From positions 1-64,000 of the forward strand of contig JASAND010024031.1 in assembly GCA_030248195.1 (NCBI GenBank): a DNA stretch of 64,000 bases. The letters are read 5' to 3'. Shown here piece after piece: positions 6,001-61,241 of the stretch. The notes beneath the pieces were generated by a model that was given only the letters and a program-made list of their open reading frames with translations, was not told the DNA's origin and searched no databases. A program made the translations under genes and the position numbers. This stretch comes from Trissonchulus latispiculum (lineage: Eukaryota > Nematoda > Enoplea > Enoplida > Ironidae). Positions within the stretch are counted from its first letter, which is position 1. Each line of letters opens with the position of its first letter.

Positions 6001-9000
6001 GTTCGGGCCGTGTTTAATACTATATCCGGCCAAATCATGAAAATTGAAATTCGTGCCGGGTTTTATAGTATTTCCGGCCCAAAATATTAAAATTGAAGTT
6101 CGGGCCGGGTTTTATACTATTTCCGGCCCAAATCATGAAAATTGAAGTTCGGGCCGGGTTTTATACTATCCGGCCAAATCATAAAATTAAAATTCGGCCG
6201 TGTTAGAAAAATAATTGGGCCGGGTTTTCTATTCGCCAAAATATAAAATGAGTTCGGCCGGGTTTTGTACTATTTCCGGCCCAAAATATTAAAATTGGAG
6301 TTCGGGCCGTGTTTTATATTTCGGCCCAAAATTAAATTAAATTGGGCCGGGTTTTAATTTCGGCCAAAATATTAAAATTGGAGTTCGGGCCGGGTTTTAT
6401 ACTGTTTTTTTTTTTTTATTATTTCCTGCCCAAATCATTAAAATTGAAGTTCGGGCCGGGTTTTATACTATTTCCGGCCCAAATCATGAAAATTAAAATT
6501 CGGGCCGTGTTTAATACTATTTCCGGCCCAAAATATGAAAATTGAAATTCGGGCCGGGTTTTATACTATTTCCGGCCCAAATCATGAAAATTGAAGTTCG
6601 GGCGATTTATATAGGAAAATATAAAATTGAATTGGGCCGGTTTATATATTTGGCCAAAATATAAAAGGGCCTGTTTATACTATTTCCGGCCCAAAATATG
6701 AAAATTGAAGTTCGGGCCGGGTTTTATACTATTTCCGGCCCAAAATATTAAAATTGGAGTTCGGGCCGTGCTTAATACTATTTCCGGCCCAAAATATGAA
6801 AATTGAAATTCGGGCCGGGTTTTATACTATTTCCGGCCCAAAACATTAAAATTGGAGTTCGGGCCGTGTTTAATACTATTTCCGGCCCAAATCATGAAAA
6901 TTAAAATTCGTGCCGTGTTTTATAGTATTTCCGGCCCAAAATATTAAAATTGAGGAGAATATTTCCGGCACAAAATATTAAAATTGAAATTCGGGCCATG
7001 TTTAATACTATTTCCGGCCCAAAATATGAAAATTGGAGTTCGGGCCGTGTTTAATACTATTTCCGGCCCAAAATATGAAAATTGGAGTTCGAGCCGGGTT
7101 TTATACTATTTCCGGCACAAAATATTAAAATTGAAATTCGGGCCGTGTTTAATACTATTTCCGGCCCAAAATATGAAAATTGAAATTCGGGCCGGGTTTT
7201 ATACTATTTCCGGCCCAAAATATTAAAATTGGAGTTCGGGCCGTGTTTAATACTATTTCCGGCCCAAAATATGAAAATTGAAATTCGGGCCGGGTTTTAT
7301 ACTATTTCCGGCCCAAAATATTAAAATTGGAGTTCGGGCCGGGTTTTATACTATTTCCGGCCCAAAATATTAAAATTGGAGTTCGGGCCGGGTTTTATAC
7401 TGTTTCCGGCCCAAATCATGAAAATTGAAGTCCGGGCCGGGTTTTATACTATTTCCGGCCCAAATCATGAAAATTAAAATTCGGGCCGTGTTTAATATTT
7501 CGTCCGGTTTTATACTATTTCTGGCCCAAAATATTAAAATTGGAGTTCGGGCCGGGTTTTATACTGTTTCCGGCCCAAAATATGAAAATTGAAATTCGGG
7601 CCGGGTTTTATACTATTTCCGGCCCAAAATATTAAAATTGGAGCTCGTTCCGGGTTTTATACTATTTCCTGCCCAAATCATGAAAATTGAAGTTCGGGCC
7701 GGGTTTTATACTATTTCCGGCCCAAATCATGAAAATTAAAATTCGGGCCGTGTTTAATACTTTTCCGGCCCAAAATATAAAATTGAAATTCGGACCAGGT
7801 TTTATATATTTGGCCCAAAATATTAAAATTGGAGTTTGGACCGGGTTTTATACTATTTCCGGCCCAAATCATGAAAATTGAAGTTCGGGCCGGGTTTTAT
7901 ACTATTTCCGGCCCAAATCATGAAAATTAAAATTCGGGCCGTGTTTAATACTATTTCCGGCCCAAAATATTAAAATTGAAATTCGGGCCGGGTTTTATAC
8001 TATTTCCGGCCCAAAATATTAAAATTGGAGTTCGGGCCGGGTTTTGTACTATTTCCGGCCCAAAATATTAAAATTGGAGTTCGGGCCGTGCTTAATACTA
8101 TTTCCGGCCCAAAATATGAAAATTGAAATTCGGGCCGGGTTTTATACTATTTCCGGCCAAAAATTAAAATTGGAGTTGCCGTGTTTAATACTTTTCCGGC
8201 CCAAAAATATTAAAATTGAAATTCGGGCCGTGTTTATCTATTTCCGGCCAAAATATGAAAATAAATCGGGCCGGGTTTTTACTATTCCGGCCTGGTTAGG
8301 CCGGGTTTTTCTTTTCCGGCCCAAAATATTAAAATTGGAGTTCGGGCCGTGTTAATCTATTTCGGCCCAAAATATAAAATTAAATTCGGCCGGGTTTTAT
8401 ACTATTTCCGGCCCAAAACATTAAACTTGAAATTCGGGCCGGGTTTTATACTATTTCCTGCCAAAATAGTTAAAATTGGAATTAGGGCCGGGTTTTATAC
8501 TATTTCCCCCCCCCCCCAAATAATGAAAATTGAAGTTCGGGCCGGGTTTTATACTATTTCCGGCCCAAATCATGAAAATTAAAATTCGGGCCGTGTTTAA
8601 TACTATTTCCGGCCCAAAATATTAAACTTGAAATTCATGCCGTGTTTAATACTATTTCCGGCCCAAATCATGAAAATTAAAATTCGGGCCGTGTTCAATA
8701 CTATTTCCGGCCCAAAATATGAAAATTGAAATTCGGGCCGTGTTTAATACTATTTCCGGCCCAAAATATGAAAATTGAAATTCGGGCCGGGTTTTATACT
8801 ATTTCCGGCCCAAAATATTAAAATTGGAGTTCGGGCCGGGTTTTATACTGTTTCCGGCACAAATCATGAAAATTGAAGTTCGGGCCGGGTTTTGTAGTAT
8901 TTCCGGCCCAAAATATTAAAATTGGAGTTCGGGCCGGGTTTTATACTATTTCAGGCCCAAATCATGAAAATTAAAATTCGGGCCGTGTTTAATACTATTT

Positions 9001-9515
9001 CCGGCCCAAAATATTAAAATTGGAGTTCGGGCCGTGTTTAATACTATTTCCGGCCCAAAATATGAAAATTGAAATTCGGGCCGGGTTTTATACTATTTCC
9101 GGCCCAAAATATTAAAATTGGAGTTCGGGCCGTGTTTAATACTATTTCCGGCCCAAAATATGAAAATTGAAATTCGGGCCGGGTTTTATACTATTTCCGG
9201 CCCAAAATATTAAAATTGGAGTTCGAGCCGGGTTTTATACTATTTCCGGCCCAAAACATTAAAACTGAAATTCGGGCCGGGTTTTATACTATTTCCGGCC
9301 CAAAATATATATTAAAATTGAAATTCGGGCCGGGTTTTATACTATTTCCGGCCCAAAACAGTAAAAATGAAATTCGGGCCGGGTTTTATACTCTTCCCGG
9401 CCCAAAATATACAACGTTTAATAGTGGGCCGGGTTTTATATAGTTGTCGGCACGGCCGGGTTTTATATAGTTTTGGCCCGGCCATGGGCCGGGCGGGGCC
9501 GGGCCGGCTTTTATA
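1..9515. repeat. 49-bp satellite array with 735-bp higher-order repeat
   Basis: This is head-to-tail tandem DNA with a 49-bp monomer. The core TTCGGGCCGGG, a TTTTATACTATTT block, CCGGCCCAAAATAT and a variable tail (GAAAATTGAA, TAAAATTGGAG or GAAAATTAAAA) recur at exact 49-bp steps, for example at 81 and 130. Marker variants show a higher-order unit. A rare monomer containing CCGGCACAAAATATTAAAAT lies at 301, 1036, 3106, 3838 and 5311. These spacings are 735, 732 and 1473, or one or two times 15 monomers; the 1036-3106 gap falls short because it crosses a degraded stretch. Since 49 leaves remainder 1 on division by 3, open frames through the array are by-products and no protein is inferred. 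The right edge, about 9400-9515, decays into GGGCCGGG-rich sequence. Segments near 1640-2080, 4470-4730, 4985-5100, 5640-5860, 6160-6420, 6600-6680 and 8150-8400 carry many small deletions. Confidence 0.97.
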
Positions 9516-32500: not shown

Positions 32501-35500
32501 CTGACTGCCAAAGCCGCCATAAAACGATACATCAAGGAGAAATGTCATCAGTTGTGGGGTCGGTACGACAGCGAAGGTATCTACCCGAAACATCTACCCG
32601 TGATTGTTGCTTGTTGATAATCACACATTGCGTGATTCTGTCGTAGCTGCGTTGCAAGGATCACTGCTCTATCCTTGCAAAGCAACAATTCCGAATAGGA
32701 ATTGTCCAATCCCCGGTTTGTCCTTCCTGCGGTACCCAAGAGGAGGACCTTGCCCACCTCCTCCTCCATTGCCCCGCCCATAGCGCCGCCCGGCGCCGTC
32801 ACCTGGGGAGTAGGCCTAGGCTGGACATTTTATCGAAGGGCCCCCCTCGGGTTCTGGCCTTCCTCCGGGATGTGGGGCGGCTCTGAGCTGCTCTAGCCAC
32901 ATTGGATATCACTCCACGATGGTCCAGGAATAGGAAGAAGAAGAGCGCTACCCCGTTCCAACCAAATTTGTGGGGGAGGGGGGTTAGCAGTTATCCTGCA
33001 TCTGAAGTCAACAGTCTAACAACTAGGAGTGTATGTACGGTTGTCACACACTCACACGTAGTTATTGTGTACACTTGCTGTCACCTACCGGCCTGGTTCA
33101 GTCGACCACCGTCTGGCTGTTTTGTCCAGCCGATCAGCCGGTCCGCTGGACGGCCAGCTCGTTTGACGCTACTGCTCAAAGGCTAATCCAACCCCAAAAT
33201 AAAAATCTGAAGATTATTTACCATTCCCATATCCGTAGTGATTTATCATCAGAAGTTGAACAAAACCTTCGGTTCTGATCGAAGAACGTAAGCGTATTGA
33301 CTGCACCCAAATGTCTGTCATATTCCTGAACCATTTCCCCGCTCCTAACATCCCACTAAAATACGAAAACTTTACGAATCAAAATTTAAAGCGTCAAAAT
33401 CAGAGAAATCCGTGTCAAAAAATTACCTAGCACACCACAAAAAACAAGAAGTTACAAAATGAATAAATAAGTAAGTAACCTGAATAATTTTCTTATCCGC
33501 CATTCCAGACAAGAAAAAGTGATGCTTATCTTCGTCCGGATTAAATCGAACACAATAAGGCACTTTACCGGTGGTGAATCGCTGTTTGCATTCACCTAAA
33601 CATATTGTCGTTGTACTTTGAGCAAACAAAGAAACCGATCATAAATCCGCAACTAGTCGTTACTGCAAATTGCATTTATTTGACCAAATGCCGTACTGAT
33701 AACATGGGTGTTATAAAATCAATTACATAAAAACTGAAGTTTGCAAGGGTAAACATAATATAAAAACAAAATTCATGAAATATACAAAACAAAACAAAAA
33801 ATAAAAGTTTCTGAATTTTGTGGTATTGCATAATGTGGCAATTGAAAATAAAGTAAATTTATACTATTTACCCTTTCAATTAATTCTGAAAGTTCTCTAA
33901 AGAATTCCTGTCAGAGAAATTCTTATTCGGAAGAATTATTCAACTTATGAAGAGGTCCACAACTAGACCCCGGTGATGATTTTCTGTCTCTCTAAATTGT
34001 TTTCACGTAAGTATCACTTCTGAGTCATCGATCCTAGTCTCCTTACAATATGTAATTCAACAGCATCAAGTCAGTATAAGAATACAAATTCAATGATACC
34101 CACCAGTTTCGGTGTCCCAAAGTTTAATAAATCGATCATAGGAAGCGGAAAGGAATTCGGAGCCATCATTGTTGAAGGTAACATCTCTGACAGCCTGCCG
34201 ATGGCCAGAATAGGTTCTAACACAACGTCGATTATTGTAGACTTCCCACAGCTAAGAAAATTAAACAAAATGACAGTTAATCAATGATACCAAGAGTACA
34301 CAATAGACAACATTGTGACAAACAGGCTCTCAGCTGTCAGCTGCTGAGCCATGCTCTGCACGCTAACGGACCACCACCTCGCAATTGCGTATGCCTAGTA
34401 AACAAAATAATGTGCGCAGCTATGCCCGAGTTCTAAAGCCGGAATAAGACACAATAATTCAGACTAACCGAGCATAAGCAAATGGGTACTGGCAACAGTA
34501 CATAATGATAAGAGTATGCCAATAGGTAGGCTATCTGTTATCAAACCAACAACTATGCTGTGTTCGCTAACGGCTGCCCCCCCCCGCAAATCAGACCCTA
34601 TAGTCTGACCAAAAAATAGGGAGCGAAATTGTTTTCTCACTCGCCGTATCTTTACGTGCTAAAGCTCGAAAACACAACTGTGAGCAGTATTCTTGGCATC
34701 TTCTGTTCTGTCTCCGCGTGACGGTTGATTAGAGTGGTGTGGTGTCCGGGAAACAGCATTGACAGATACAGGTTTCTGTAAATGAGCGTTGTCTAATTGT
34801 GCTGTTTCGGCCGCTTGCATCATTTGATGGATTTTCGCCAAGTTTGGTTCAGGTTCTTCTAGCAGTTTGAGACAAGTTGGACCGTGTTGACATCCGTTTA
34901 CCAACTGTATGGCTAGGAATTTGTCTTCTTGGAGTCCAAAATCGCAGTCAGAAGCCAGAGTTCTCAATGCAGCGAGAAATTCTGCTGCAGTTTCATTGAC
35001 TCCTTGATGTCGGCAGAAGAAGTCCACTGGGGCTCGTACTTTACTCACTGGTTTGTCAAAAAGATCGCGCACGGCTTGAGAGTATTCTTGATACCGCGCA
35101 ACATCTTGCTGAAAGGCGATTGGATGGGAGGAGAACATCCGACATCCCTCTGTTCCAAGTAAGGAAAACAGGTAGTGGTTTTTGTCAGCTTCTGTGAGCT
35201 TATCATCATCCTTGCGGTTACGGTTGTTCAGGTATAGGTAGTTCTCGAACAATCCGAACCAGATTTTGAATGATGGGGCTGAAGGTTCACCAGGCCTCTC
35301 CAGTTATTTCTGAGGTACCGGAAGGCTGGATGTCATCTTGCGTAGGCAAGGCTCGCAGCGCCAATTTGGTGTGTCGGATACTGAGACTAGTTACAGTGCA
35401 ACCGCATCTCAGTATCATAGCATTTACTACAATGAGATTAACAATAAGGTTCATCGTTTATATACGTTTAAGTGACCAATCAGAGTTTATTCTACTTGTC

Positions 35501-48719: not shown

Positions 48720-50880
48720 CTGTGGCAGCAGCATTCACAAATTCCAAAAGTGAACTCCCCATGCCCAATAAGCTTTGCATACAAAGTTTTAAACTTTCAG
48801 CTATCTCCAGTAGCTTGAACCAGGAACTGGTTCAACTTTGAACCAGTTGAACCAGATCTGGCCAGCCATGGGTCGACTCACCAAAGTTACACCACCAGTG
48901 AATTCCCCTTGCCCAATAACCTTTGTATGCAAGACTTCAGCCTTCCAACTATCTCCAGTAGCTTGAACCAGGAACTGGTTCAACTTTGAACCAGTTGAAC
49001 TAGATCTGGCCAGCCATGGGTCAGATCACCAAAGTTACACCACCAGTGAATTCCCCTTACCCAATAACCTTTGTATGCAAGATTTCAGCCTTCCAGCTAT
49101 CTTCAGTAGCTTGAACCAAGAACTGGTTCAACTTTGAACCAGTTGAACCAGATCTGGCCAGCCATATGTCGGATTACCAAAGTAACACCACCAGTGAATT
49201 CCCAATGCCCAGTAACCTTTGTATGCAAAATTTCAGCCTTCTACCTATCTCCAGTTGCTTGAACCAGGACCTGGTTCAACTTTGAACCAGTTGAACCAGA
49301 TCTGGCCAGCCATGGGTTGGATCACCAAAGTTACACCACCAGTGAATTCCCCATGCCTAATAACCTTTGTATGCAAAATTTCAGCCTTCCGACTATGTCC
49401 AGTAGCAGTGAAGTCCCCATGCTCAGTAACCTTTGTATGCAAAATTTCAGCCTTCTAGCTATCTCCAGTTGCTTGAACCAGGAACTGGTTCAATTTTGAA
49501 CCAGTTGAACCAGATCTGGCCAGCCATGGGTTGGATCACCAAAGTTACACCACCAGTGAATTCCCCATGCCTAATAACCTTTGTATGCAAAATTTCAGCC
49601 TTCCGACTATCTCCAGTAGCAGTGAAGTCCCCATGCTCAGTAACCTTTGTATGCAAAATTTCAGCCTTCTAGCTATCTCCAGTTGCTTGAACCAGGAACT
49701 GGTTCAATTTTGAACCAGTTGAACCAGATCTGGCCAGCAATGGGTCGGATCACCTAAGTAGCACCACCAGTGAATTCCCCATGCCCAATAACCTTTGTAT
49801 GCAAAATTTCAGCCTTCTAGCTATCTCCAGTTGCTTGAACCAGGAGCTGGTTCAACTTTGAACCTGTTTTAACCAGATCTGGCCAGCCATGGGTCGGATC
49901 ACCAAAGTAACACCACCAGTGAATTCCCCATGCCCAATAACCTTTGTATGCAAAATTTCAGCCTTCCAACTATCTCCAGTAGCTTGAACCAGGAACTGGT
50001 TCAATTTTGAACCAGTTGAACCAGATCTGGCCAGCAATGGGTCGGATCACCTAAGTAGCACCACCAGTGAATTCCCCATGCCCAATAACCTTTGTATGCA
50101 AAATTTCAGCCTTCTAGCTATCTCCAGTTGCTTGAACCAGGAGCTGGTTCAACTTTGAACCAGTTGAACCAGATCTGGCCAGCCATGGGTCGGATCACCA
50201 AAGTAACACCACCACTGAATTCCCCATGCCCAGTAACCTATGTATGCAAAATTTAAGCCTTCTACCTATCTCCAGTTGCTTGAACCAGGACCTGGTTCAA
50301 CTTTGAACCAGTTGAACCAGATCTGGCCAGCCATGGGTTGGATCACCAAAGTTACACCACCAGTGAATTCCCCATGCCTAATAACCTTTGTATGCAAGAT
50401 TTCAGCCTTCCAGCTATCTCCAGTAGCTTGAACCAGGAACTGGTTCAACTTTGAACCAGTTGAACCAGATCTGGCCAGCAATGGGTCGGATCACCTAAGT
50501 AGCACCACCAGTGAATTCCCCATGCCCAATAAACTTTGTATGCAAAATTTCAGCCTTCTAGCTATCTCCAGTTGCTTGAACCAGGAGCTGGTTCAACTTT
50601 GAACCAGTTGAACCAGATCTGGCCAGCCATGGGTCGGATCACCAAAGTAACACCACCACTGAATTCCCCATGCCCAGTAACCTATGTATGCAAAATTTCA
50701 GCCTTCCGACTATCTCCAGTAGCTTGAACCAGGAGCTGGTTCAATTTTGAACCAGTTGAACCAGATCTGGCCAGCCATGGGTCGGATCACCAAAGTAACA
50801 CCACCAGTGAAGTCCCCATGCTCAGTAACCTTTGTATGCAAAATTTCAGCCTTCTAGCTATCTCCAGTTGCTTGAACCAG
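48720..50880. repeat. 148-bp satellite with 214-bp variants
   Basis: CTTTGTATGC recurs at 48921, 49069, 49217 and 49365 (148-bp steps). The steps then alternate between 66 and 148, giving a 214-bp compound unit. Each monomer contains the imperfect palindrome CTGGTTCAACTTTGAACCAG followed by TTGAACCAGATCTGGCCAGC. About 14 monomers are present. The last is cut at CTTGAACCAGG by the left LTR of the retroelement and does not resume on its far side. Confidence 0.95.
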
Positions 50881-50881
50881 G

Positions 50882-51602
50882 TGTTATAAACATGCCTTTA
50901 CAAATTTTACTAGTTTCTTTAATACTTATATTAATTGTTATTAACATAACATATGCTTATAGTATGGTTATATTCATTGTATTTACACTATAGTTAGGCA
51001 CAATATCTCTACGTAATTGTTTATGATATTATCTACGTGTTATATGTATACGCATTAGTACGTCATTTTTCCTTCATTTTAACACAAAAAGGCTTCGGGC
51101 CACTATTATCTAACTCTAAAATTCTAACAGGCCGCAGGCCATATTAAAATCTATTTTCTCAAACTATGTCATAAAGTCACTTGTAATGTCATGAAAGGGC
51201 ATCTTTAGAGTAGGTCTCTTTTATCCACAGGGGCCATTATACACACAATTTCTATTAATTTTCTCAAAATTTATACTTTTCATAATACATTTCAACCTAC
51301 ATTCTAAAATTAACCTAAATTTAATTGGGCCTCTGCGGTGTATAAAAGGGACCTCCTCAGTAATTTTGGTAGTCAGTAAAGATAGTTAAAGCCTAAGTTG
51401 TCTTGACTAACATTTGGGAAAATCTCCAACTTTGGTTAAACAACTTGGAAGACCATTACACGTGGGCAAACAAACTGGGGACAACGTAAAGACATAATCC
51501 ATTAATTATAAAGTTGGGTAGATCAATTAGGGTTAACTTAGACATTTGGGTTAAACGACTATATACACAGAGTCCTTAACTTAGGTAACACTACTTGTTA
51601 CA
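50882..51602 (+). repeat. LTR copy in inverted (plus) orientation, 721 bp
   Basis: It runs from TGTTATAAACATGCC to ACTACTTGTTACA and matches 61241-60521 in reverse complement over the whole length with no difference seen by eye. As the distal LTR of a minus-strand element it should lie in the other orientation. Its U5 end (..GTTACA) directly abuts the pol ORF, whose stop codon (51583-51581) lies inside this LTR. No polypurine tract is present on this side. Confidence 0.93.
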
Positions 51603-54600
51603 TTTTGCTTTTGAGTGACTTCTGGTTGTAGCTGTGTCAATGTTTGGTCTTGTATCTCCGCGGAGTTTGCTGGTTGGATTTGGTTAGAAGGTGTAAGGGG
51701 AATGTAGTAGGTCGTAGTAACTGGCTTTAGTCGGTTAACGTGTACTTTTTGTGATGGTTTAGTAGGGTTACAACATTCCTGTATGTCAGCAGTAGGTAGG
51801 GTTAAGCTTATTATGCGAAAAGGGCCGTGCCATGGTCGGCTAAGTTTTGTAGTTTTTCCTTTGGTCAATGCCGGAACATAGAGCATAACTAGTTGATTTT
51901 CTGAGAAATTGGTGTCCGTTGTTTTACGGTCATAGTAGTGTTTTTGTTTAGCCTGAGCTAGTTGTATGTGGTGTTTGGCAAGAGTCCATGCTTCTTGCAA
52001 GTTTCGAACAAGGTCGATTCGGTAATCTTCGATTTCGCAATAAAGACTTCCAGTTGGACGTAGTACTGTGTCAAGAGGTAGCCGTGCCTCACGACCGAAG
52101 TTGAGGAAGAACGGGGTGTCGAGGGTTGATGAATGTACTGATGTTCGGTATGCAAAAAGGCAGAAGTTGATGAAACTGGACCAATCCTTCTGTGTGTGAG
52201 ATACGTATTTGCTGATCATTTGCATAAGTGTACCATTGAATCGCTCACATTGACCGTCCGTTTGTGGGTGATAGGCTGTAGTATTGATTTTAGTAACCCC
52301 TAACAGGTTACAAGTTTCCGTCATAAGTGCACTCAGAAAATTAGCTCCACGGTCCGAGAGAAGTTCTTTGGGACAAGAATACCGACAGACAATTTCCTCC
52401 ACAAATATTTTAGCTATTGTTTCGGATTTAGTGTTTACTAGTGGAAAAGCCTCTACCCATTTGGTGAGATATTCCGTAAATACTATAATGTATTTGTATC
52501 CCTCTTCTGTTTGGGGTAGCGGTCCAAGGATGTCAACTGCGACACGATCCCATGGTCCTTCAACCGGGATGGGTACCAATGGTGCTTTTGTAGCTTTGGG
52601 GGGATTCTTTTTACGGATGCAGGCTTCACAAGTTCGGCACCATTCCTTAATGTCCTTTCTTATGGTATCCCACCAGTATCGACTTAAGATTTTTAGGTAC
52701 GTTTTTTCAAAGCCTAGATGTCCTGCTGTGACATGCTCGTGCAATGCCTTGAAGACTTCGTATGTTAGTATTGTTGGGATGACAAGTTGCTGAAATAAAT
52801 TTCCTGGTTTGCTGGCTTGGGGGTATTCGTGATATAGGAGTCCATCCTCGATAAAGTACCGAACTGCTTTTACTGTAATACGGGTTGCTTCTGTTATATC
52901 ATCTGGCAGTGAGCCAGTTTCGAGATAATCAATAAACTTCTTAGTATCGGGTTGTTCTCGCTGTTGCTGGTGTAAGGAAGTGAAATCATTGGGTGTTAGG
53001 GTTAGGACCTTGTGTGCTGTGTCTTCTCCAAAGGTGGATTGGCGAAAGGGCAGTCTTGACATAGCATCGGCGTTACCATGTTTCTTTCCAGGTTTATATT
53101 GTATTTCCAGTTTATATTCTTGTAATTGGAGGATCCATCGCATAAGACGTCCGCTGGGTGATTTGATAGTCATTAGCCATCGTAATGGACTATGATCAGT
53201 GATTATAGTGACCTTCTGACCATAAATAAGATGGCGGAAGTATTTAACGCCGAAAACTATGGCCAGTGTCTCAAGCTCGATAACAGGATAATTTTTCTCA
53301 GATTTTGTTAAAGTTCGACTTGCGTATGCTACGGGGTGCTCCTTGTTCAGGGCGTCTAGCTGTGACAGTACGGCACCTAGACCGAATCCACTTGCGTCAG
53401 TTTGGAGAATGTAGGGTCGATTTATGTCTGGGAAGGCGAGAATAGGCGCTGTAATAAGGTGTTCTTTGAGTGTCGTGAAACTATGTTCACAGTCTTTGGA
53501 CCACTGGAATGAGTTTTCCTTCTTTAGTAGGGTATAGAGCGGGTATGCAACTTGAGCGAAATTCTTAATGAATCTTCTGTAATATGAGGCGAGACCTAGG
53601 AAGCTACGTAGTTCCGTCAAATTCCTTGGTGCTGGGTAGTCACGGACTTTAGCAATTTTGTCATTTTCTGGTTGTAGTCCGTTTCTGGAGATGGTATGTC
53701 CGAGATAGCTAACAGTGCGGCAAGCGAAGTGGCACTTTCTTGCTTTCAGTTTTAGTTGATGATCTCGTAGTCGTTGTAACACGTTGGATATATCGACTAA
53801 ATGTTGTTCAAATGTTGGCGAGAATATTATAATATCATCAAGATAGCATAAACAGAATTTAGTTTGTAGTCCCGATAATACGATGTTCATTAGTCTCTGA
53901 AAGGTTGCTGGTGCGTTACTTAGACCAAATGGCATCACGTTATAGTGGAAAAGGCCTTCTTCACAAATGAATGCTGTTTTTTCTTTATCTTGTTCACTCA
54001 TTTGGACGTTGTAATAGCCAGATTGTAGGTCTAGTGTGCTGAAAAAATGAGCTTTTCCCAGTGAATCTAGGAGATCATCAATTCTAGGTAAAGGGAAAAC
54101 ATCTCGTTTTGTTACTGCATTGATTTTTCTAAAGTCTACGCAGATTCGAATTGATCCGTCCTTTTTAGCCACGAGGACTATTGGCGATGCCCAGGGTGAA
54201 GAGCTTGGCTCGATTATCTTGTGTTTGATCCAGTCTTGAATTGTCCGAGCTACAGTTGAGCGTAGTGAAACAGGGGTGCGATAAGGGCGCTGATAAATGG
54301 GTTTCTGATCACCAGTATCAATAGAATGTTTGATGGCGGTTGCACATCCGACATCGTTGTCATCTTTGGCGAAGACGTCAATGAATTGTTTTAAAAGTTG
54401 TAGCAGCTTATTCTGCTGAGGCGGTGTGAGTTCCGACGATGTGAGATCAATGTCGGATAGAGGATTCCGTGGTGATTCATTATGGTGGTCTAGTGGGGTC
54501 GTGTTTTCGTTTATAGTGTATACAGATCCAATTGTTGTCTTCGCATAGATTTTTATGGGTGCGTTGCTCGTGTTCATGACCCGTAACGGTATTTTTGAGC

Positions 54601-56686
54601 CTTGTGCGACGACGGCCCTCGCAACGTAGAGACCTGTAGATGCTTCAAAGCGTGGATTGGGTTCAAAGAGACCGCCATTTGTGCTTCCTTTTAGGTTGCA
54701 AGAGAACGTAACTTGTGTTCTGGCGGGTATCGTCATTGATTCTTCTATAAAGGCTGTGGCAGCGTCTTTGTCTTTGATCCGTTTACCTTTTTGAATGGTA
54801 ATTGTTTCTGTTTGTAAATCTATAATGATTGGTCCAAGTTTCTTAAGTATGTCTGTACCTAAGATGCAGTCGTGGGGAGACTTTGAGACTATATAGGTAA
54901 GGTGGTCAATTACCGAAGTACCAATTTTGAGGGATAAACGGGCTTGCCCCGTAATTTTTAGTTCATGCCCAGTCATACTGGTTGCGGATATTGCAGCAGC
55001 GAGTTTTGGTAGATTAGGATTGCCTTGTACGATGTTTTCGTAAGTTACTTCATCCACCAGTGTTATCGTTGATCCAGTGTCAATCAAAGCTTTGGTTGGT
55101 GTATTGTTAATGTAAATAGGTATGGAGGTTGTAGCAGGTCCTATGCAGTTGGTCATTTCGGTTTGAGTTGGCGTTTTAAGTGTTTCGGGCCAATATTGGG
55201 AGGTTGTCGGAATTTCGATTGAACGTTGTATGGGTATAAAAGAGTTTAACGAAGGAGAAACCTGGGTCTGGCGATTTGACTTCAGGTCTTTTTGAGGGTA
55301 TAGTGATTCCATTTCTCGAGTTCCCTGTCCCGTCTGAGGAAGCTGCTCCTGATCGTTCTCTGTAGAAAAGGCTGGAATATTTAGGATTGTTGGAACTCGA
55401 TACGGTGTAGATAGCCTTCGTACACGTTCGATGATACTGGGTGCAGTTGGTGGTTGGCATGGTGGCGGCAGAGTTATCATCTCTTCGGCTTCTGGGTCTC
55501 TGTTGTCCATTGAACTCCCGTTAGGGCTGCTTCTTTTCTGGCGTTGACGTAGCCGTAGCATTAGGGCTCGTGAGGTAGACCGTTTTCGTTTATGGGCCCA
55601 TCTTCGAAAGCGTGGCCAAACTCTTGGAAGGTTGACAGCCATCCCATTCCGTATTTCCACAGGGCAACAGTGGATAAGGAGGAAGCTAATTGTTACATAT
55701 GCACATACTAGGAATACCCATAGTTGCCACGGACTAATAGCAAATCCGTGTAGAAATCCAAAGAACCCTTTATTGATGATACCATTGACCACTCCTTGGG
55801 CTACTTGTTTGGGAGTCTTTTGAGTTGTCCGGTCACTGAGTTCTTGTAGTATTTTTTGTTGATACTGCAATCCTCCTATGATTTCATTCAAGCTAATTTC
55901 GGATGTGATTTCTGAAAAATTGTACATAACTATTTGACTGAATATTGTAGGTTGAAAGCTCCAGGGTTCGGTTGTATTCCATGAAAACGCTCGTAATTCT
56001 GGGATGTGTAGCAGTGGGGTCAGATCTCCAGTTTCACTCTGATAGGTATACATTTTCCCATGTAACTGCACCGGGACTTCTCTGTTAAGTCTGCAGTCCA
56101 CTGGGTACGGATTTTTATGTACAATATTTGTAATAGGATCAAGGTAGGCTGAGTATTCTTGTGAATTTAATAGAAATTTAATGGGTATCTCCATGCTGCA
56201 TGTTTCATTCATAGGTTCAAAGTGGTAGAATCCAGTTTCAATTTCTTGACAGGGCCATGTTGATATTACGTTGCCTCCGGCTCTGGCAATTATATCATTG
56301 CGGCCCAAGATAGCCCTAATGGCTAATGTCGGATTAGCCATCATGTCCGCTTTTAGGACCTCCATGATAGTTGCCATTGAGCGACAAGCTGCGTTCATTG
56401 CTTGTTTGAAAGCAAAGTTAAGGTTTCTTTGTACTTTGAATTCTTGTGCTTGTAGTGACGAGGCCATTAAGTCAGTTGTTACAATGCCGTTGTCAACTGC
56501 CCATTGTTTCAACTGGGGAACGGCGGTTTCGCTTTTTTGTAGGCTGGCTATTAACTGTTGGGAGGTGGAGGTATTTCCAATTGAGCGTTTATTTTTGTAA
56601 ATCGGTGGATGTATTCGTACAGGGATGCCTTGATCAGTTAACACGTTCCTTACCAGGGACGTATTTTTACGTCTTTTTGAATACAA
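51581..56686 (-). CDS. Envelope C-terminal half fused to PR-RT-RNaseH-IN polyprotein (1701 aa)
   Basis: Residues 1 to about 350 are envelope-like: a KNKR furin-type site near residue 33, an ectodomain with paired cysteines and several N-glycosylation sequons, a hydrophobic anchor (LWVFLVCAYVTISFLLIH) at about 320-340, and a basic cytoplasmic tail. Then come an aspartic protease (ALIDTGSTI, about 533), reverse transcriptase (CVDFRKIN about 846; YLDD about 946), RNase H (TDASGFGLGAVLS about 1095), the integrase HHCC zinc domain (about 1315-1355), and a catalytic D,D-35-E core (VDILGP, LSDRGANF, CERFNG; about 1387, 1446, 1481). No in-frame stop until 51581, within the inverted LTR. The ATG sits just inside the 1-kb insertion, so the native start of this reading frame is lost. 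The envelope half resembles glycoproteins of chuvirus-like viruses captured by retroelements; this is inference. Confidence 0.9.
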   Translation of the reverse strand: MYSKRRKNTSLVRNVLTDQGIPVRIHPPIYKNKRSIGNTSTSQQLIASLQKSETAVPQLKQWAVDNGIVTTDLMASSLQAQEFKVQRNLNFAFKQAMNAACRSMATIMEVLKADMMANPTLAIRAILGRNDIIARAGGNVISTWPCQEIETGFYHFEPMNETCSMEIPIKFLLNSQEYSAYLDPITNIVHKNPYPVDCRLNREVPVQLHGKMYTYQSETGDLTPLLHIPELRAFSWNTTEPWSFQPTIFSQIVMYNFSEITSEISLNEIIGGLQYQQKILQELSDRTTQKTPKQVAQGVVNGIINKGFFGFLHGFAISPWQLWVFLVCAYVTISFLLIHCCPVEIRNGMAVNLPRVWPRFRRWAHKRKRSTSRALMLRLRQRQKRSSPNGSSMDNRDPEAEEMITLPPPCQPPTAPSIIERVRRLSTPYRVPTILNIPAFSTENDQEQLPQTGQGTREMESLYPQKDLKSNRQTQVSPSLNSFIPIQRSIEIPTTSQYWPETLKTPTQTEMTNCIGPATTSIPIYINNTPTKALIDTGSTITLVDEVTYENIVQGNPNLPKLAAAISATSMTGHELKITGQARLSLKIGTSVIDHLTYIVSKSPHDCILGTDILKKLGPIIIDLQTETITIQKGKRIKDKDAATAFIEESMTIPARTQVTFSCNLKGSTNGGLFEPNPRFEASTGLYVARAVVAQGSKIPLRVMNTSNAPIKIYAKTTIGSVYTINENTTPLDHHNESPRNPLSDIDLTSSELTPPQQNKLLQLLKQFIDVFAKDDNDVGCATAIKHSIDTGDQKPIYQRPYRTPVSLRSTVARTIQDWIKHKIIEPSSSPWASPIVLVAKKDGSIRICVDFRKINAVTKRDVFPLPRIDDLLDSLGKAHFFSTLDLQSGYYNVQMSEQDKEKTAFICEEGLFHYNVMPFGLSNAPATFQRLMNIVLSGLQTKFCLCYLDDIIIFSPTFEQHLVDISNVLQRLRDHQLKLKARKCHFACRTVSYLGHTISRNGLQPENDKIAKVRDYPAPRNLTELRSFLGLASYYRRFIKNFAQVAYPLYTLLKKENSFQWSKDCEHSFTTLKEHLITAPILAFPDINRPYILQTDASGFGLGAVLSQLDALNKEHPVAYASRTLTKSEKNYPVIELETLAIVFGVKYFRHLIYGQKVTIITDHSPLRWLMTIKSPSGRLMRWILQLQEYKLEIQYKPGKKHGNADAMSRLPFRQSTFGEDTAHKVLTLTPNDFTSLHQQQREQPDTKKFIDYLETGSLPDDITEATRITVKAVRYFIEDGLLYHEYPQASKPGNLFQQLVIPTILTYEVFKALHEHVTAGHLGFEKTYLKILSRYWWDTIRKDIKEWCRTCEACIRKKNPPKATKAPLVPIPVEGPWDRVAVDILGPLPQTEEGYKYIIVFTEYLTKWVEAFPLVNTKSETIAKIFVEEIVCRYSCPKELLSDRGANFLSALMTETCNLLGVTKINTTAYHPQTDGQCERFNGTLMQMISKYVSHTQKDWSSFINFCLFAYRTSVHSSTLDTPFFLNFGREARLPLDTVLRPTGSLYCEIEDYRIDLVRNLQEAWTLAKHHIQLAQAKQKHYYDRKTTDTNFSENQLVMLYVPALTKGKTTKLSRPWHGPFRIISLTLPTADIQECCNPTKPSQKVHVNRLKPVTTTYYIPLTPSNQIQPANSAEIQDQTLTQLQPEVTQKQNVTSSVT

Positions 56687-56977
56687 TAATTGGTCGGGGG
56701 ACGTAAAAACACGCCAAAAAAATTGGTTGTTATAGCTGTTTCAAAAGAAAAATAAAATCCCCAAAAAAAAAAAAATAAGGAAAAAAAAAATAAAATACAC
56801 AACCCCGCCCCCCTGGGTACAGGGCACGTGCGCGGGAAAACCACAAAACCCATATCCCCCCCATTCCCAAATTCTTATTTTCTCCCCCCCGCCGCCTCCA
56901 CAAACCAACAAATATTTTATTTCCAGATAAATGGACCAAGGAGGGAAGACAAATTATGGAAATGAGGATGGGAGGGA

Positions 56978-56987
56978 TATATAAAAA
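56978..56987 (+). promoter_or_regulatory. TATA box of the 99-codon ORF
   Basis: TATATAAAAA lies about 66 bp upstream of the ATG at 57053, a plausible Pol II core promoter spacing with a short 5' UTR. Confidence 0.4.
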
Positions 56988-57052
56988 TTTTTATATTCTT
57001 GTGGTGGTTTACTGATCGCCTAGGCCAATATGGCATCATCTAGAATCTAGAT

Positions 57053-57352
57053 ATGAACGAATTCAAAACGTTTACTGGCACTGCTATGTCTTCACATGGG
57101 TCTAGTGAATTTTCTAAGGTATGCTGCCTCTCGGATGGACTGTTCAAACTGACTGTGTATAAGAACTTACCTTTGAGACGTGGTAGATTCTCGGCTTATT
57201 TGATCTTCAGTAACCTTCATTTGACGGATAATTTCTTCGGTGGGGGTCCTGATAGACTAGCCAAACTTTACTTTAGGTGCAAAGAAAGTGCCACAGAAAA
57301 ATATACTGTGTGCTCTAGCAGAGGAAGCCAGCTTGATGAGTTTTCATTGTAA
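57053..57352 (+). CDS. Hypothetical 99-aa protein inside the hAT-like insertion
   Basis: Open frame of 99 codons on the strand opposite to the host retroelement. It starts MNEFKTFTG and ends SRGSQLDEFSL. It is mixed-composition, mildly basic, with four cysteines (a CC pair at about 24-25 and two more near 75 and 87). No signal peptide, membrane segment or known motif is recognised. A TATA-like box lies 66 bp upstream and an AATAAA signal about 43 bp downstream, so it looks like a compact transcription unit. It could be a passenger gene, a captured host exon or a transposase remnant. Confidence 0.5.
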   Translation: MNEFKTFTGTAMSSHGSSEFSKVCCLSDGLFKLTVYKNLPLRRGRFSAYLIFSNLHLTDNFFGGGPDRLAKLYFRCKESATEKYTVCSSRGSQLDEFSL

Positions 57353-57394
57353 ACTGCCTGAAAACGTTTTGATTTGTCGATTTGAACTTTTTTC

Positions 57395-57400
57395 AATAAA
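57395..57400 (+). terminator. AATAAA polyadenylation signal
   Basis: AATAAA 43 bp after the stop codon of the 99-codon ORF, on the same strand. Confidence 0.45.
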
Positions 57401-57751
57401 TCCATGACTTTTCTTAGTCAGTAAACCTTTTTCCTTTTAATGGGTTTTTATACACGTATTTTTTTTCTTTTTGAAAAAAAAGGACGGAAAGAGAACGAAA
57501 ATACCCCAAAATTAAATAGTAGCAGAAACCCAAAATAAGACGTAATAGTACGTCCAATGGAATAGCCTGTAGTAAACGTAAAATTACGTTGTTTAACATA
57601 TTTCTAGAACGTATAATGAAAAAAGTTTATAGACGTAAATTTACGTCCAAGGTATTTTGTGCTTACCAGATAGAGTTCGTAGAGTGGAGCAGATGTGTAT
57701 ACTTGGATTGGAAATTGGTCAAGTATTGAGAGTGGAAGGCTAATTTCAAAT

Positions 57752-60475
57752 CTACGGTAACGGGGGTGAAAAGTGTGGTAAGGAACGTGTTAATTGTATC
57801 TCCCGATTGTGACAGTCCTTGGCAAACTTTCCACCTTGGAATGTTAGTGCGAGTTGATCATTGTCTGCTAACCAATTGGCTCCCCACATCTCTCCTGGTA
57901 AGGTTTGCCATTCCAGAAATTCGCATCTTTCGTCCTGATTTGGTTCCCACAGTAGGTAGCTACCGTCTCGAAGTTGACATCCTCCAGATCTGTAATCACA
58001 GTGTTCAACCCATCCGGCAGTAGATTCCATGTTCTCACTGCTGTGGCGTTTATAGACGTAGGCTTCATACATGAAGCAATTAGTAGCTGTATAGGTGTGC
58101 CAGTGGCAACAGTCAATGCCTCCACCTGACCACTTATATTCGACTTTATTGTCAGTCTGCCACAGACCCCCACGTAGTGTTAGGGGACCGGCGTCACATT
58201 GATGGAATCGCCTCATGGATTCACATTCAGTACCGGTTACTCGAATGTCATGTTTTTCTTCTTCTTTGAGGTGGTGAGTGGCGAAAAAGTATGTGAAAGT
58301 ACGTACTGTTTGTTTCACAATTGTACATTTCCATGCTTTGGACTTGTATTTTACGTAGTTGCGTTTGTACAATGTTAGCTCTACAGTTTGCAAGTCTTGA
58401 CGTGACGTGCTGACTGCTGAATTACAACGGAGTCGTCCTGGTAGTCGCCACAGCGCTCTACCTTGCTCCGTTTGACAAACCATTGGCCCGCTCGCCATTT
58501 CGGTAATGCTTCGCACGGACGTTACAGGTACTATAAGGCATATGATAGTTAGTAAGAGTATTGATTTCGGAAAATAGCCGCCAACGAGATTTTGGAGAGG
58601 TGTAATTTTTGAAAAATTGTCACAATTGTTGTCAGTTGTGTCCTGTAGCAAATCTTTCTTGGTGTTATCTGTTCTGGCATGTCTTGATTTTTTCTTTCGG
58701 TTGACCTGGGATTCAGTATTATTGCTGAGATTCGCCGGTATAGGACTTGCACCAGACATCTGAGTTACACCAGCAATGTGGCTGTTGTCCAGTTGCTCGT
58801 GATTTATAGTGAACTCGTCGGCAGGAGAAACTGATATAGTTCCCACGAATTCCGAATATTGACTGTTCAGGAGTTCCTGGTTTTGTTCTGTCAGCATCTT
58901 GATAGTCTCCTGTAATTCTGAGACGTTTACACTGCTGTCGTTAGTGTCAGTAGGTGTAACATCATGGGCAGTCACGGCGTAAGTGCGATTATTTGGCTGG
59001 TTTCGGTTTGTAGTAAAATTTCTCCTGTTTGTACCCCAAATATTCTGCCCGTTTTGATTTTGACGCCAGTTGTTATAGTTGCCGGTATTGTTTCCATTGG
59101 ATTCTCTGTCACGTTTTCTTTTGCGACAGTTGATGACAAAATGGCCTGGCTTTTTGCAGTAGTGACAAATTATGCGGCTATCCGTTGTCCAACCACGTAC
59201 TGACGCAGGTCGTGTATTGGTATCTCGGCTGGAAGCAGATTGTGGAGTCGTAGAATTAGATGTCCTCTCCATTAGACCCAATACATATCCACTCTGACGC
59301 TGGTGATCAATTGTTAAAGTTTGTAATTTGTCGTTAATCTCTTTTATAGCTTGCTTCCACTCCGTATCGTCGGTATGTGTCGCTTGAGTGATAGCCAAAG
59401 TTTCTGCTGAAGTTGCTGTTAATGCTGTGCCAGCTGGGTTGAGGCCGGTAGTCAGAAATTCTCCAGCTTCTATAAGTTTGGCAGACTTCAATGCTTCTTC
59501 AAAATTTATCGGCTCCTTAGCCATTACTAAACGTCCGTAATGTGGTAGTAACCCGGCAATGAAAAATTCCAAACATAGTTTTTCTTGATGATCTGCGTCA
59601 AATTTTGGATATGCACCCTTAACTAGTTTCTTAATGCTAGCCCCGAAGTCGGAAACACGCTCATGTGGCTGCTGGGACCTTCGGTGTAATTGGGCACTTT
59701 TGAACCTGGCCATCTCTGCTGGTTCCAGAGCAGATTTTAACGCACGGATTAGGTCCGGGTAACTGGATTTCACAGCACTGTCGAGTGCCGCGTAGATGTC
59801 TCTTGCCTGTTTTTCCAAACAAACAGGCAGCATTCTGGCTTTTTCGTCGGCAGTCCAGCCATTAGCCGTCCCAATAATGTCGAAAGAGTCTATAAACTCC
59901 TTCCAACTTTCGTGGGCTTGTCCTGAATACCGCAGTCCGATAAGACTAGTTACTCCGCTCATGCTGGATATAGCTTGCTTTAAGCTACCGGGCAAATTCT
60001 GAAGAGCAGTTTGAAGTTGGGAGAAATCCGGGACTTGTTGTCCTCCTTGCATTGGTGGTTCTGGAGACTGTTGTAGTGTGGCGATAATCCTTTCTGTTTC
60101 TTCGACGTCGGAGGGGTTAAAGCCAGAAAAGGCTGAGTTGCTAGAGTCGTCACTGTCTGAACTTGATTTCTCAGACTTCAGTCTGACAGTGCGCTGGCTA
60201 TTCTGGGTAATTTCTTCGGAAAAACTTTGAGTCTGCTGAAGTCGATCGATCGACTGGTTTATTCTATTGCTTAGACTTCGAATTCGTTCCGCGAATTCGG
60301 ATCCTCTAAATAGTTGATACTGTGTTTGCGTAGATTGTGTGGATAGCCCAAATGCTTGACTTTCAGGAACTTGTACAGATTGTACAGATATATCTAGGGC
60401 TTCTGACTTGAGAGTGGCGTTTGCTTTAGTCGTACTAGTTGTTGGTTCACTCTGCCTGTCAGTTCCCGAGTCCAC
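57752..60475 (-). CDS. Gag fused to envelope N-terminal half (907 aa)
   Basis: Residues 1-150 are Ser/Gln/Thr-rich with a coiled-coil-like stretch. About 175-345 is a Ty3/gypsy-type capsid domain (SWKEFIDSFD, ARDIYAALDS, RVSDFGASIKKL). A CCHC zinc knuckle (CHYCKKPGHFVINC) is at about 436-449, followed by an Arg/Asn-rich tail, as in nucleocapsid. From about 637 a hydrophobic SILLLTIICLIVPVTSV segment looks like an internal signal peptide. It leads into a cysteine-rich ectodomain (GRALWRLPGRLRCN, DCCHWHTYTATNC, QLRDGSYLLWEPNQDERC). The frame closes with TAG at 57754-57752 beside a C5 run, while another frame remains open up to the 1-kb insertion, which suggests a one-base frame change in this copy or an assembly error. 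The gag-to-env fusion without a stop is unusual. Confidence 0.88.
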   Translation of the reverse strand: MDSGTDRQSEPTTSTTKANATLKSEALDISVQSVQVPESQAFGLSTQSTQTQYQLFRGSEFAERIRSLSNRINQSIDRLQQTQSFSEEITQNSQRTVRLKSEKSSSDSDDSSNSAFSGFNPSDVEETERIIATLQQSPEPPMQGGQQVPDFSQLQTALQNLPGSLKQAISSMSGVTSLIGLRYSGQAHESWKEFIDSFDIIGTANGWTADEKARMLPVCLEKQARDIYAALDSAVKSSYPDLIRALKSALEPAEMARFKSAQLHRRSQQPHERVSDFGASIKKLVKGAYPKFDADHQEKLCLEFFIAGLLPHYGRLVMAKEPINFEEALKSAKLIEAGEFLTTGLNPAGTALTATSAETLAITQATHTDDTEWKQAIKEINDKLQTLTIDHQRQSGYVLGLMERTSNSTTPQSASSRDTNTRPASVRGWTTDSRIICHYCKKPGHFVINCRKRKRDRESNGNNTGNYNNWRQNQNGQNIWGTNRRNFTTNRNQPNNRTYAVTAHDVTPTDTNDSSVNVSELQETIKMLTEQNQELLNSQYSEFVGTISVSPADEFTINHEQLDNSHIAGVTQMSGASPIPANLSNNTESQVNRKKKSRHARTDNTKKDLLQDTTDNNCDNFSKITPLQNLVGGYFPKSILLLTIICLIVPVTSVRSITEMASGPMVCQTEQGRALWRLPGRLRCNSAVSTSRQDLQTVELTLYKRNYVKYKSKAWKCTIVKQTVRTFTYFFATHHLKEEEKHDIRVTGTECESMRRFHQCDAGPLTLRGGLWQTDNKVEYKWSGGGIDCCHWHTYTATNCFMYEAYVYKRHSSENMESTAGWVEHCDYRSGGCQLRDGSYLLWEPNQDERCEFLEWQTLPGEMWGANWLADNDQLALTFQGGKFAKDCHNREIQLTRSLPHFSPPLP

Positions 60476-60490
60476 GACAATGTAATCTCA

Positions 60491-60516
60491 CCGCTCAAAT
60501 CTCGGTGGAACCTCCA
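60491..60516 (-). promoter_or_regulatory. Primer-binding site, tRNA-Gln type
   Basis: On the minus strand, four bases after the proximal LTR, TGGAGGTTCCACCGAGATTT and following bases are complementary to the 3' end (CCA plus acceptor and T arm) of a metazoan tRNA-Gln, with one apparent mismatch over 26 nt. This marks 60521-61241 as the true 5' LTR. Confidence 0.8.
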
Positions 60517-60520
60517 AAAA

Positions 60521-61241
60521 TGTAACAAGTAGTGTTACCTAAGTTAAGGACTCTGTGTATATAGTCGTTTAACCCAAATGTCTAAGTTAACCCTAATTGA
60601 TCTACCCAACTTTATAATTAATGGATTATGTCTTTACGTTGTCCCCAGTTTGTTTGCCCACGTGTAATGGTCTTCCAAGTTGTTTAACCAAAGTTGGAGA
60701 TTTTCCCAAATGTTAGTCAAGACAACTTAGGCTTTAACTATCTTTACTGACTACCAAAATTACTGAGGAGGTCCCTTTTATACACCGCAGAGGCCCAATT
60801 AAATTTAGGTTAATTTTAGAATGTAGGTTGAAATGTATTATGAAAAGTATAAATTTTGAGAAAATTAATAGAAATTGTGTGTATAATGGCCCCTGTGGAT
60901 AAAAGAGACCTACTCTAAAGATGCCCTTTCATGACATTACAAGTGACTTTATGACATAGTTTGAGAAAATAGATTTTAATATGGCCTGCGGCCTGTTAGA
61001 ATTTTAGAGTTAGATAATAGTGGCCCGAAGCCTTTTTGTGTTAAAATGAAGGAAAAATGACGTACTAATGCGTATACATATAACACGTAGATAATATCAT
61101 AAACAATTACGTAGAGATATTGTGCCTAACTATAGTGTAAATACAATGAATATAACCATACTATAAGCATATGTTATGTTAATAACAATTAATATAAGTA
61201 TTAAAGAAACTAGTAAAATTTGTAAAGGCATGTTTATAACA
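60521..61241 (-). repeat. 5' LTR of the retroelement, 721 bp
   Basis: On the minus strand it runs TGTTATAAACATGCC to CTTGTTACA, with TG..CA ends, directly before the primer-binding site. It is the same length as the inverted copy at 50882-51602. Confidence 0.93.
60776..60784 (-). promoter_or_regulatory. LTR TATA box
   Basis: TGTATAAAAGGG on the minus strand inside the 5' LTR. It is a strong Pol II TATA box that would start transcription towards gag about 30 bp further on. The inverted LTR has the same box on the plus strand at about 51337-51346, pointing into pol antisense. Confidence 0.65.

Follow-up and report, generated by a model that had tools for sequence, protein, structure and literature searches.

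The 64,000-nt stretch of the Trissonchulus latispiculum genome analysed here (contig JASAND010024031.1, positions 1–64,000; called the window below) carries a damaged member of a Ty3/gypsy-type long terminal repeat (LTR) retroelement family, in which the envelope glycoprotein gene (env) is placed between gag and pol. That elements of this family have the order gag, env, protease (PR) and reverse transcriptase (RT) in a single frame, with a conserved fusogen as the env product, can be taken as established with very little doubt. The pol part showed the arrangement of Ty3/gypsy elements, PR-RT-RNase H-integrase (IN) with a DDE integrase core, in Pfam searches of the window and of its relatives. 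A first-pass annotation of the window had described two open reading frames (ORFs), one joining Gag to the N-terminal part of Env (env N) and the other joining the C-terminal part (env C) to Pol. Both were present where it had placed them, together with the KNKR site and the membrane anchor of the second glycoprotein half (Table 1).

The gene order was followed in the source assembly (734 Mb, 21,732 contigs). The search with RT-IN gave 63 matches from 62 scored of 9634 candidates and the env search scored 118 of 721 candidates, in both cases the best-matching part, so that the counts are lower bounds. Twenty sister copies with a complete, stop-free RT-IN were examined over up to 6 kb upstream and 2.6 kb downstream, a selection which favours well-kept copies; five partial or stop-bearing copies (C12730, C20743, C1036, C10122 and C16237) and one complete copy near a contig end (C11340) were omitted. 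In 17 of the 20, gag, env N, env C and PR preceded RT in that order, and in 12 the RT frame extended upstream without a stop for at least 4.8 kb. At least 121 genome matches to env C were found, 29 of the 121 lying within open frames of at least 2400 aa, and on 14 contigs the RT-IN and env matches shared one common frame of 2442–2643 aa (both counts tallied by eye). For two of these contigs, C4619 and C659, the frame ended 37 and 20 codons past the RT-IN piece. The expectation of the first-pass annotation that uninterrupted copies would keep gag-env-PR-RT in one open frame was thus borne out by the 12 sister copies and the 14 contigs. Env also preceded RT in all of four divergent copies (RT-IN 51–56% identical), with a 933-codon piece open in three of them.

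Intact copies with env after pol had been named in advance as the refutation of this order. None was detected in the downstream stretches of the 20 sister copies or at the 62 RT-IN places, of which 45 had env upstream on the same strand, 0 had it downstream and 17 had no listed env, three of the latter (C19664, C11603 and C15787) being directly shown to carry env upstream. This count comprised 62 of the 63 RT-IN rows (a second C725 fragment was omitted) and 58 of the 121 env rows, those left out being, on inspection by eye, extra fragments or located on contigs without an RT-IN row. An order produced by rearrangement of a single copy, with intact elements having env after pol or no env, would fit the window copy, which is itself rearranged (inverted LTR, no target duplication and truncated pol tail). 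Such an explanation is refuted for practical purposes by the order being common to the sister copies and to the database relatives described below.

The rearrangement of the window copy concerns its 3' end and has no bearing on the gene order. Its terminal repeats of 725 nt (50882–51606 and 60517–61241) were 100% identical and inverted, which means that this copy is not an intact provirus, and the copy lacked the C-terminus of pol, the downstream ORF and a direct 3' LTR. The element of the first-pass annotation should therefore be read as one with a rearranged 3' end, in which the LTR is inverted and the pol tail truncated; a YNLRPR-like pol C-terminus was present in 16 of the 20 sister copies. 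No target duplication was found in the flanks, which consisted of a 148-bp tandem array abutting the inverted LTR (48749–50881) on one side and a C-rich stretch on the other. The inverted LTR may have arisen through aberrant joining of cDNA ends, through a later rearrangement or through an assembly error. The inverted copy comprised the 721-bp LTR and four further bases (51603–51606) mirroring the gap between the LTR and the primer binding site (PBS), and ended at the edge of the PBS; this end point matches what the 5' end of a minus-strand cDNA would give. DIRS and Penelope elements, considered on account of the inverted terminal repeats, were ruled out by the integrase core and the direct LTRs of other copies.

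The direct TG...CA LTRs and 4–6 bp target duplications of Ty3/gypsy elements, missing from the window copy, were found in two sister copies. C3506 had direct LTRs of 634 bp (100% identical), a GTAC duplication and a purine-rich stretch ahead of the 3' LTR, and C20827 had direct LTRs of about 860 bp (100% identical) and a TTAC duplication. In C8840 the direct LTRs were 99.7% identical and the target duplication was not clear. The remaining 17 of the 20 had no LTR pair within the examined stretches, which were extended for C3506 and C20827 only. The identical pairs of C3506 and C20827 suggest recent activity. Sixteen of the 20 sister copies had the PBS core at the expected position; a further copy, C17388, had it only 723 bases ahead of RT. 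The presumed primer for the PBS TGGAGGTTCCACCGAGAT is tRNA-Gln.

The separation of the two ORFs in the window was traced to a 1.15-kb spacer bounded by TTAA and inverted ends, presumably of the piggyBac type. The spacer had 11 further end-to-end copies in the genome, with 83–89% identity, and env N directly adjoined env C in all 18 of the 20 sister copies which showed env within 6 kb. Because the spacer is a dispersed repeat with such ends and the env halves are contiguous in sister copies, the two ORFs of the window represent one former gene interrupted by a DNA transposon. The "two fused polyproteins" of the first-pass annotation have to be replaced by one polyprotein gene. That Gag-EnvN and EnvC-Pol were always separate genes, with the spacer as part of the element, corresponds to the appearance of the window taken alone; the dispersal and ends of the spacer and its absence from those 18 sister copies leave this explanation next to no credit.

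The same layout was detected outside this genome. In an RT-IN search of 5.8 billion proteins, 7876 of the 8000 scored candidates had E ≤ 1e-10, and among the best 120 listed, four (P0071, P0075, P0093 and P0103) had env in the middle. A fifth, P0123, was obtained with the env region of P0075, a search which returned four proteins, P0093 not among them. All five were single chains of 2293–2707 aa from source contigs of 8.8–15.2 kb, with the Pfam domain PF24664 (53–66.8 bits) ahead of PR and a CCHC zinc knuckle ahead of PF24664. In each of them Gag was followed by a signal-peptide-like segment and PR was preceded by an anchor, and 16 cysteines were counted over 531–571 aa, compared with 12 + 4 in the two window pieces. 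The env C region of P0001 had no match among the 5.8 billion proteins, the relatives being found with the RT-IN query instead. Scans of viral contigs gave no relative, and a scan of prokaryote contigs gave eight matching RT or IN. In the RT-IN tree, built from 106 of 122 proteins, the window grouped with the env-middle proteins in a set of 12 rows (support 88) which also contained P0120–P0122.

Some of the database proteins had further features. In P0093, a dUTPase domain was present between CCHC and Env. P0100 and P0108 had hydrophobic segments between CCHC and PR and no env-profile match, and P0100 matched the anchor region of the window. In the polyprotein P0092, IN and a chromodomain were followed by a fusion domain of the rhabdovirus type.

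The identity of the glycoprotein was assessed by comparison with Pfam, in which the env C part of the window matched PF24664 (Monjiviricetes_fusion) with 27.6 bits at a cut-off of 27. Scores under the cut-off were obtained for BDV_G, the Borna disease virus G family (22.3 bits, cut-off 27), and for herpesvirus gB (20.6 bits, cut-off 43). The env N part alone had no match in Pfam and a weak match to gB in the PDB (E = 1). Against a profile built from the five relatives' ectodomains, both window parts matched collinearly, at positions 8–229 in ORF 1 and 218–395 in ORF 2. Uninterrupted env pieces of the same genome exceeded the PF24664 cut-off in C3506 (34.5 bits) and C15787 (31.7 bits). By these profile comparisons Env matches a class III fusogen family, and the earlier call of a cysteine-rich glycoprotein is upheld by the PF24664 match and the collinear profile over both parts.

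To evaluate the constraint on Env, ratios of nonsynonymous to synonymous substitution (dN/dS) were calculated from pairs with dS of 0.05–1.2, with stop-bearing copies dropped and the window included. The median was 0.085 for gag (18 of 18 sequences kept, 13 pairs), 0.043 for env N (18 of 19, 28 pairs) and 0.034 for env C (19 of 19, 27 pairs). Env is under purifying selection and at least as constrained as the compared part of Gag. A non-functional Env carried as a passenger by the gag-pol frame could be supposed from C10968 and C17388, which showed no env within 6 kb of RT, and from P0120 and P0121, members of the same weakly supported RT set with no space for env between CCHC and PR. Given env ratios of 0.03–0.04, below that of gag, and the 16 cysteines, signal-peptide-like segment and anchor retained in all five distant relatives, a passenger role is very improbable.

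The frame extended well upstream of any conventional start codon. The earliest in-frame ATG of the 12 open copies came 105–196 codons into the frame, and the coding part ahead of it had dN/dS of 0.20–0.41 in eight pairs, which indicates purifying selection. The sequence GTGGACTCGG directly followed the PBS in 11 of these 12 copies; C20827 had a stop between GTGGACTCGG and the open frame. Judged by this conservation, translation likely starts at a non-AUG codon. In the window, 60440–60490 held no in-frame ATG near the Gag start.

Past the end of pol, an open frame of at least 225 aa (ORF3) was found in 13 of the 20 downstream stretches; the window copy was without it. In six copies the ORF3 protein had 251–276 aa from the first Met, no hydrophobic segment and no convincing match in Pfam. 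Across subfamilies it was 26–34% identical to the C659 protein, and 93 genome matches were counted, fragments included. An example place is L041:1803-2564, with homologous sites in other copies.

From these features the intact genome would read LTR - PBS - [Gag - signal peptide - class III ectodomain - anchor - PR - RT - RNase H - IN] - ORF3 - LTR, the bracketed part being one ORF of about 2540–2650 codons, with translation probably starting at a non-AUG codon. It is proposed that the nascent chain threads the membrane of the endoplasmic reticulum twice. Gag would remain cytosolic, the internal signal peptide would route Env to the lumen and the anchor would return the chain to the cytosol, making PR-RT-RNase H-IN cytosolic. 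Signal peptidase would then cut Gag from Env, and the element's own protease would cut the Env tail from Pol, with the furin-like site priming Env in some members. In this way a single unspliced RNA would yield Gag, Env and Pol jointly at the membrane. With Gag and Pol predicted on the cytosolic side and Env in the lumen, signal peptidase and the element's protease would suffice for the separation. In all six proteins compared (the window and the five relatives), basic residues exceeded acidic ones in the 40 aa after the anchor, and the same was true before the signal peptide in the five relatives.

Taken together, it is considered probable that the element has this architecture and makes one polyprotein which threads the membrane and is cleaved by signal peptidase and the element's protease. 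A broader formulation is held with less assurance, being favoured to a modest degree. According to it, the whole virion (capsid, fusogen, protease, polymerase and integrase) would be encoded as a single membrane-threading polyprotein in an unspliced, non-AUG-initiated frame of the flavivirus/alphavirus type, Pol would be tethered into the particle by the anchor, and the post-pol place of env would be taken by an unrelated soluble accessory gene. The polyproteins of flaviviruses and alphaviruses provide a known precedent for such a strategy.

An alternative is that env lies within an alternatively spliced intron, so that Gag-Pol is made from an env-less message and Env from another, the in-frame fusion being incidental. 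Retroviral env is normally expressed from spliced RNA, and in individual copies env was preceded by donor-like and PR by acceptor-like sites, some of them at positions common to related copies. No top-scoring donor or acceptor position was common to all 17 copies scanned, in what was a weak test with simple weights, and the env-to-PR frame was stop-free in 12 of the 20 sister copies, which had been picked for a good RT-IN. Splicing is accordingly regarded as rather unlikely, and cleavage of a single polyprotein is preferred.

Several observations weigh against the proposed architecture and processing. Three of the 20 sister copies did not show all parts in order within the 6 kb before RT: C16316 had env N and env C, then PR 2.9 kb further, and no gag in the stretch examined, and C10968 and C17388 had PR alone, with env found 8.6 kb upstream in C10968. 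Copy C9787 had four stops between env and PR, and the choice of complete, stop-free RT-IN copies and of single-chain database proteins leaves elements with an env-PR stop under-represented. PF24664 scores fell under the cut-off in three of five env pieces of the same genome (C11603, 25.5 bits; C8840, 24.8; C19664, 17.4), and single-sequence structure prediction of the env C part gave no usable fold (mean pLDDT 35). The furin-like site was missing from the ectodomain of four of the five relatives, and the window had 2 basic and 4 acidic residues before the signal peptide, the reverse of the relatives. The RT-IN tree, which contained no named reference clades, allows for more than one origin of the layout. 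Finally, the 1:1 ratio of Gag to Pol that one frame implies is unusual.

Table 1. Features of the retroelement copy in the window (positions in the 64,000-nt stretch).
Feature	Position	Strand	Remarks
Gag + env N ORF (ORF 1)	57752-60475	-	907 aa open frame
env C + PR-RT-RNase H-IN ORF (ORF 2)	51581-56686	-	1701 aa open frame
5' LTR, 721 bp, TG...CA	60521..61241	-	repeat comparison; brackets sister copy C12730, occurring twice in direct orientation around it
Primer binding site TGGAGGTTCCACCGAGAT	60499..60516	-	4 nt from LTR
Gag part of polyprotein	58568..60475	-	without in-frame ATG near start
CCHC zinc knuckle in Gag	59126..59167	-	Pfam and motif reading
Internal signal-peptide-like hydrophobic segment (17-mer)	58514..58564	-	residues 638-654 of ORF 1
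Env signal peptide + N part of ectodomain, 12 Cys in 242 aa	57790..58567	-	profile of relatives
DNA transposon insert	56642..57789	.	flanked by TTAA, which forms part of the 18-bp inverted ends
Env C part of ectodomain (4 Cys; 309 aa), anchor, part of tail	55577..56637	-	Pfam and relatives' profile
KNKR furin-like site	56585..56596	-	residues 31-34 of ORF 2
Membrane anchor, then positively charged tail	55673..55723	-	residues 322-338 of ORF 2
Aspartyl protease	54833..55123	-	Pfam
Reverse transcriptase	53690..54169	-	Pfam
RNase H	53114..53428	-	Pfam
Integrase (zinc-binding + core)	52265..52780	-	Pfam
Pol tail, truncated, without YNLRPR-like C-terminus	51607..52186	-	comparison with sister copies
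Inverted LTR copy where 3' LTR expected	50882..51602	+	repeat comparison

Elsewhere in the window, a very long tandem array with a 49-bp unit occupied 1–9483, and an open frame at 34662–35303 on the minus strand gave the impression of a Gag of another retroelement.

For retroelements with env, the order gag-pol-env is regarded as the rule, and the usual picture of env capture is the addition of a gene after pol. The family described here shows that env can be captured in frame within gag-pol and held there under selection, which raises the issues of how Env is separated from Pol and how the Gag:Pol ratio is set. It also suggests that annotation based on gene order would overlook such elements. 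With uninterrupted copies and distant relatives at hand, the processing can be tested directly through RNA and peptide data.

Errantiviruses are Ty3/gypsy elements with a baculovirus-type env downstream of pol, expressed from spliced RNA. Env of errantiviruses is described as baculovirus-like (PMC12440569), and the env-like proteins of Roo, Tas and Cer-7 are located downstream of the polyprotein (PMC7642597). Troyka was dropped as a candidate relative on account of its CG...CG termini and lack of env (PMC12440569), no env gene is described for Kuafuorterviruses in the available text (PMC11673190), and Cer1/CERV differs in that no env-like protein is known there (PMC10309623). No description of env between gag and pol was found in the full-text literature searched, with subscription journals and preprints mostly outside it. 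The family combines known parts, a Ty3/gypsy-type backbone and a gB/chuvirus-type fusogen, in an order and frame not found described.

Among the closer parallels, Dingle from Dimorphilus is likewise of the Ty3/gypsy type, with an Env resembling cytomegalovirus and herpesvirus gB, but its env-like protein is located downstream of integrase, whereas here it is placed between Gag and PR in one frame (PMC7854359). The position of env after pol that Dingle shares with errantiviruses was found in neither the sister nor the divergent copies, and the gag-pol-env order of Retroviridae was also not observed. Anakin is similar as an LTR element with a captured glycoprotein of the chuvirus type, the virus class of the best Pfam match here, but it has a BEL/Pao backbone (PMC7642597). 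P0092 resembles the present elements in that a single chain holds Gag-Pol together with a fusion domain of class III type; its domain follows IN and the chromodomain, so a fusogen after pol also exists in this form. The sORF2 elements of the MDG1 group are of the Ty3/gypsy type and also have a fusogen-like gene which is not after pol. There, however, it is a short FAST-like membrane protein encoded by its own ORF upstream of gag, whereas here it is a large glycoprotein inside the gag-pol frame (PMC11952523).

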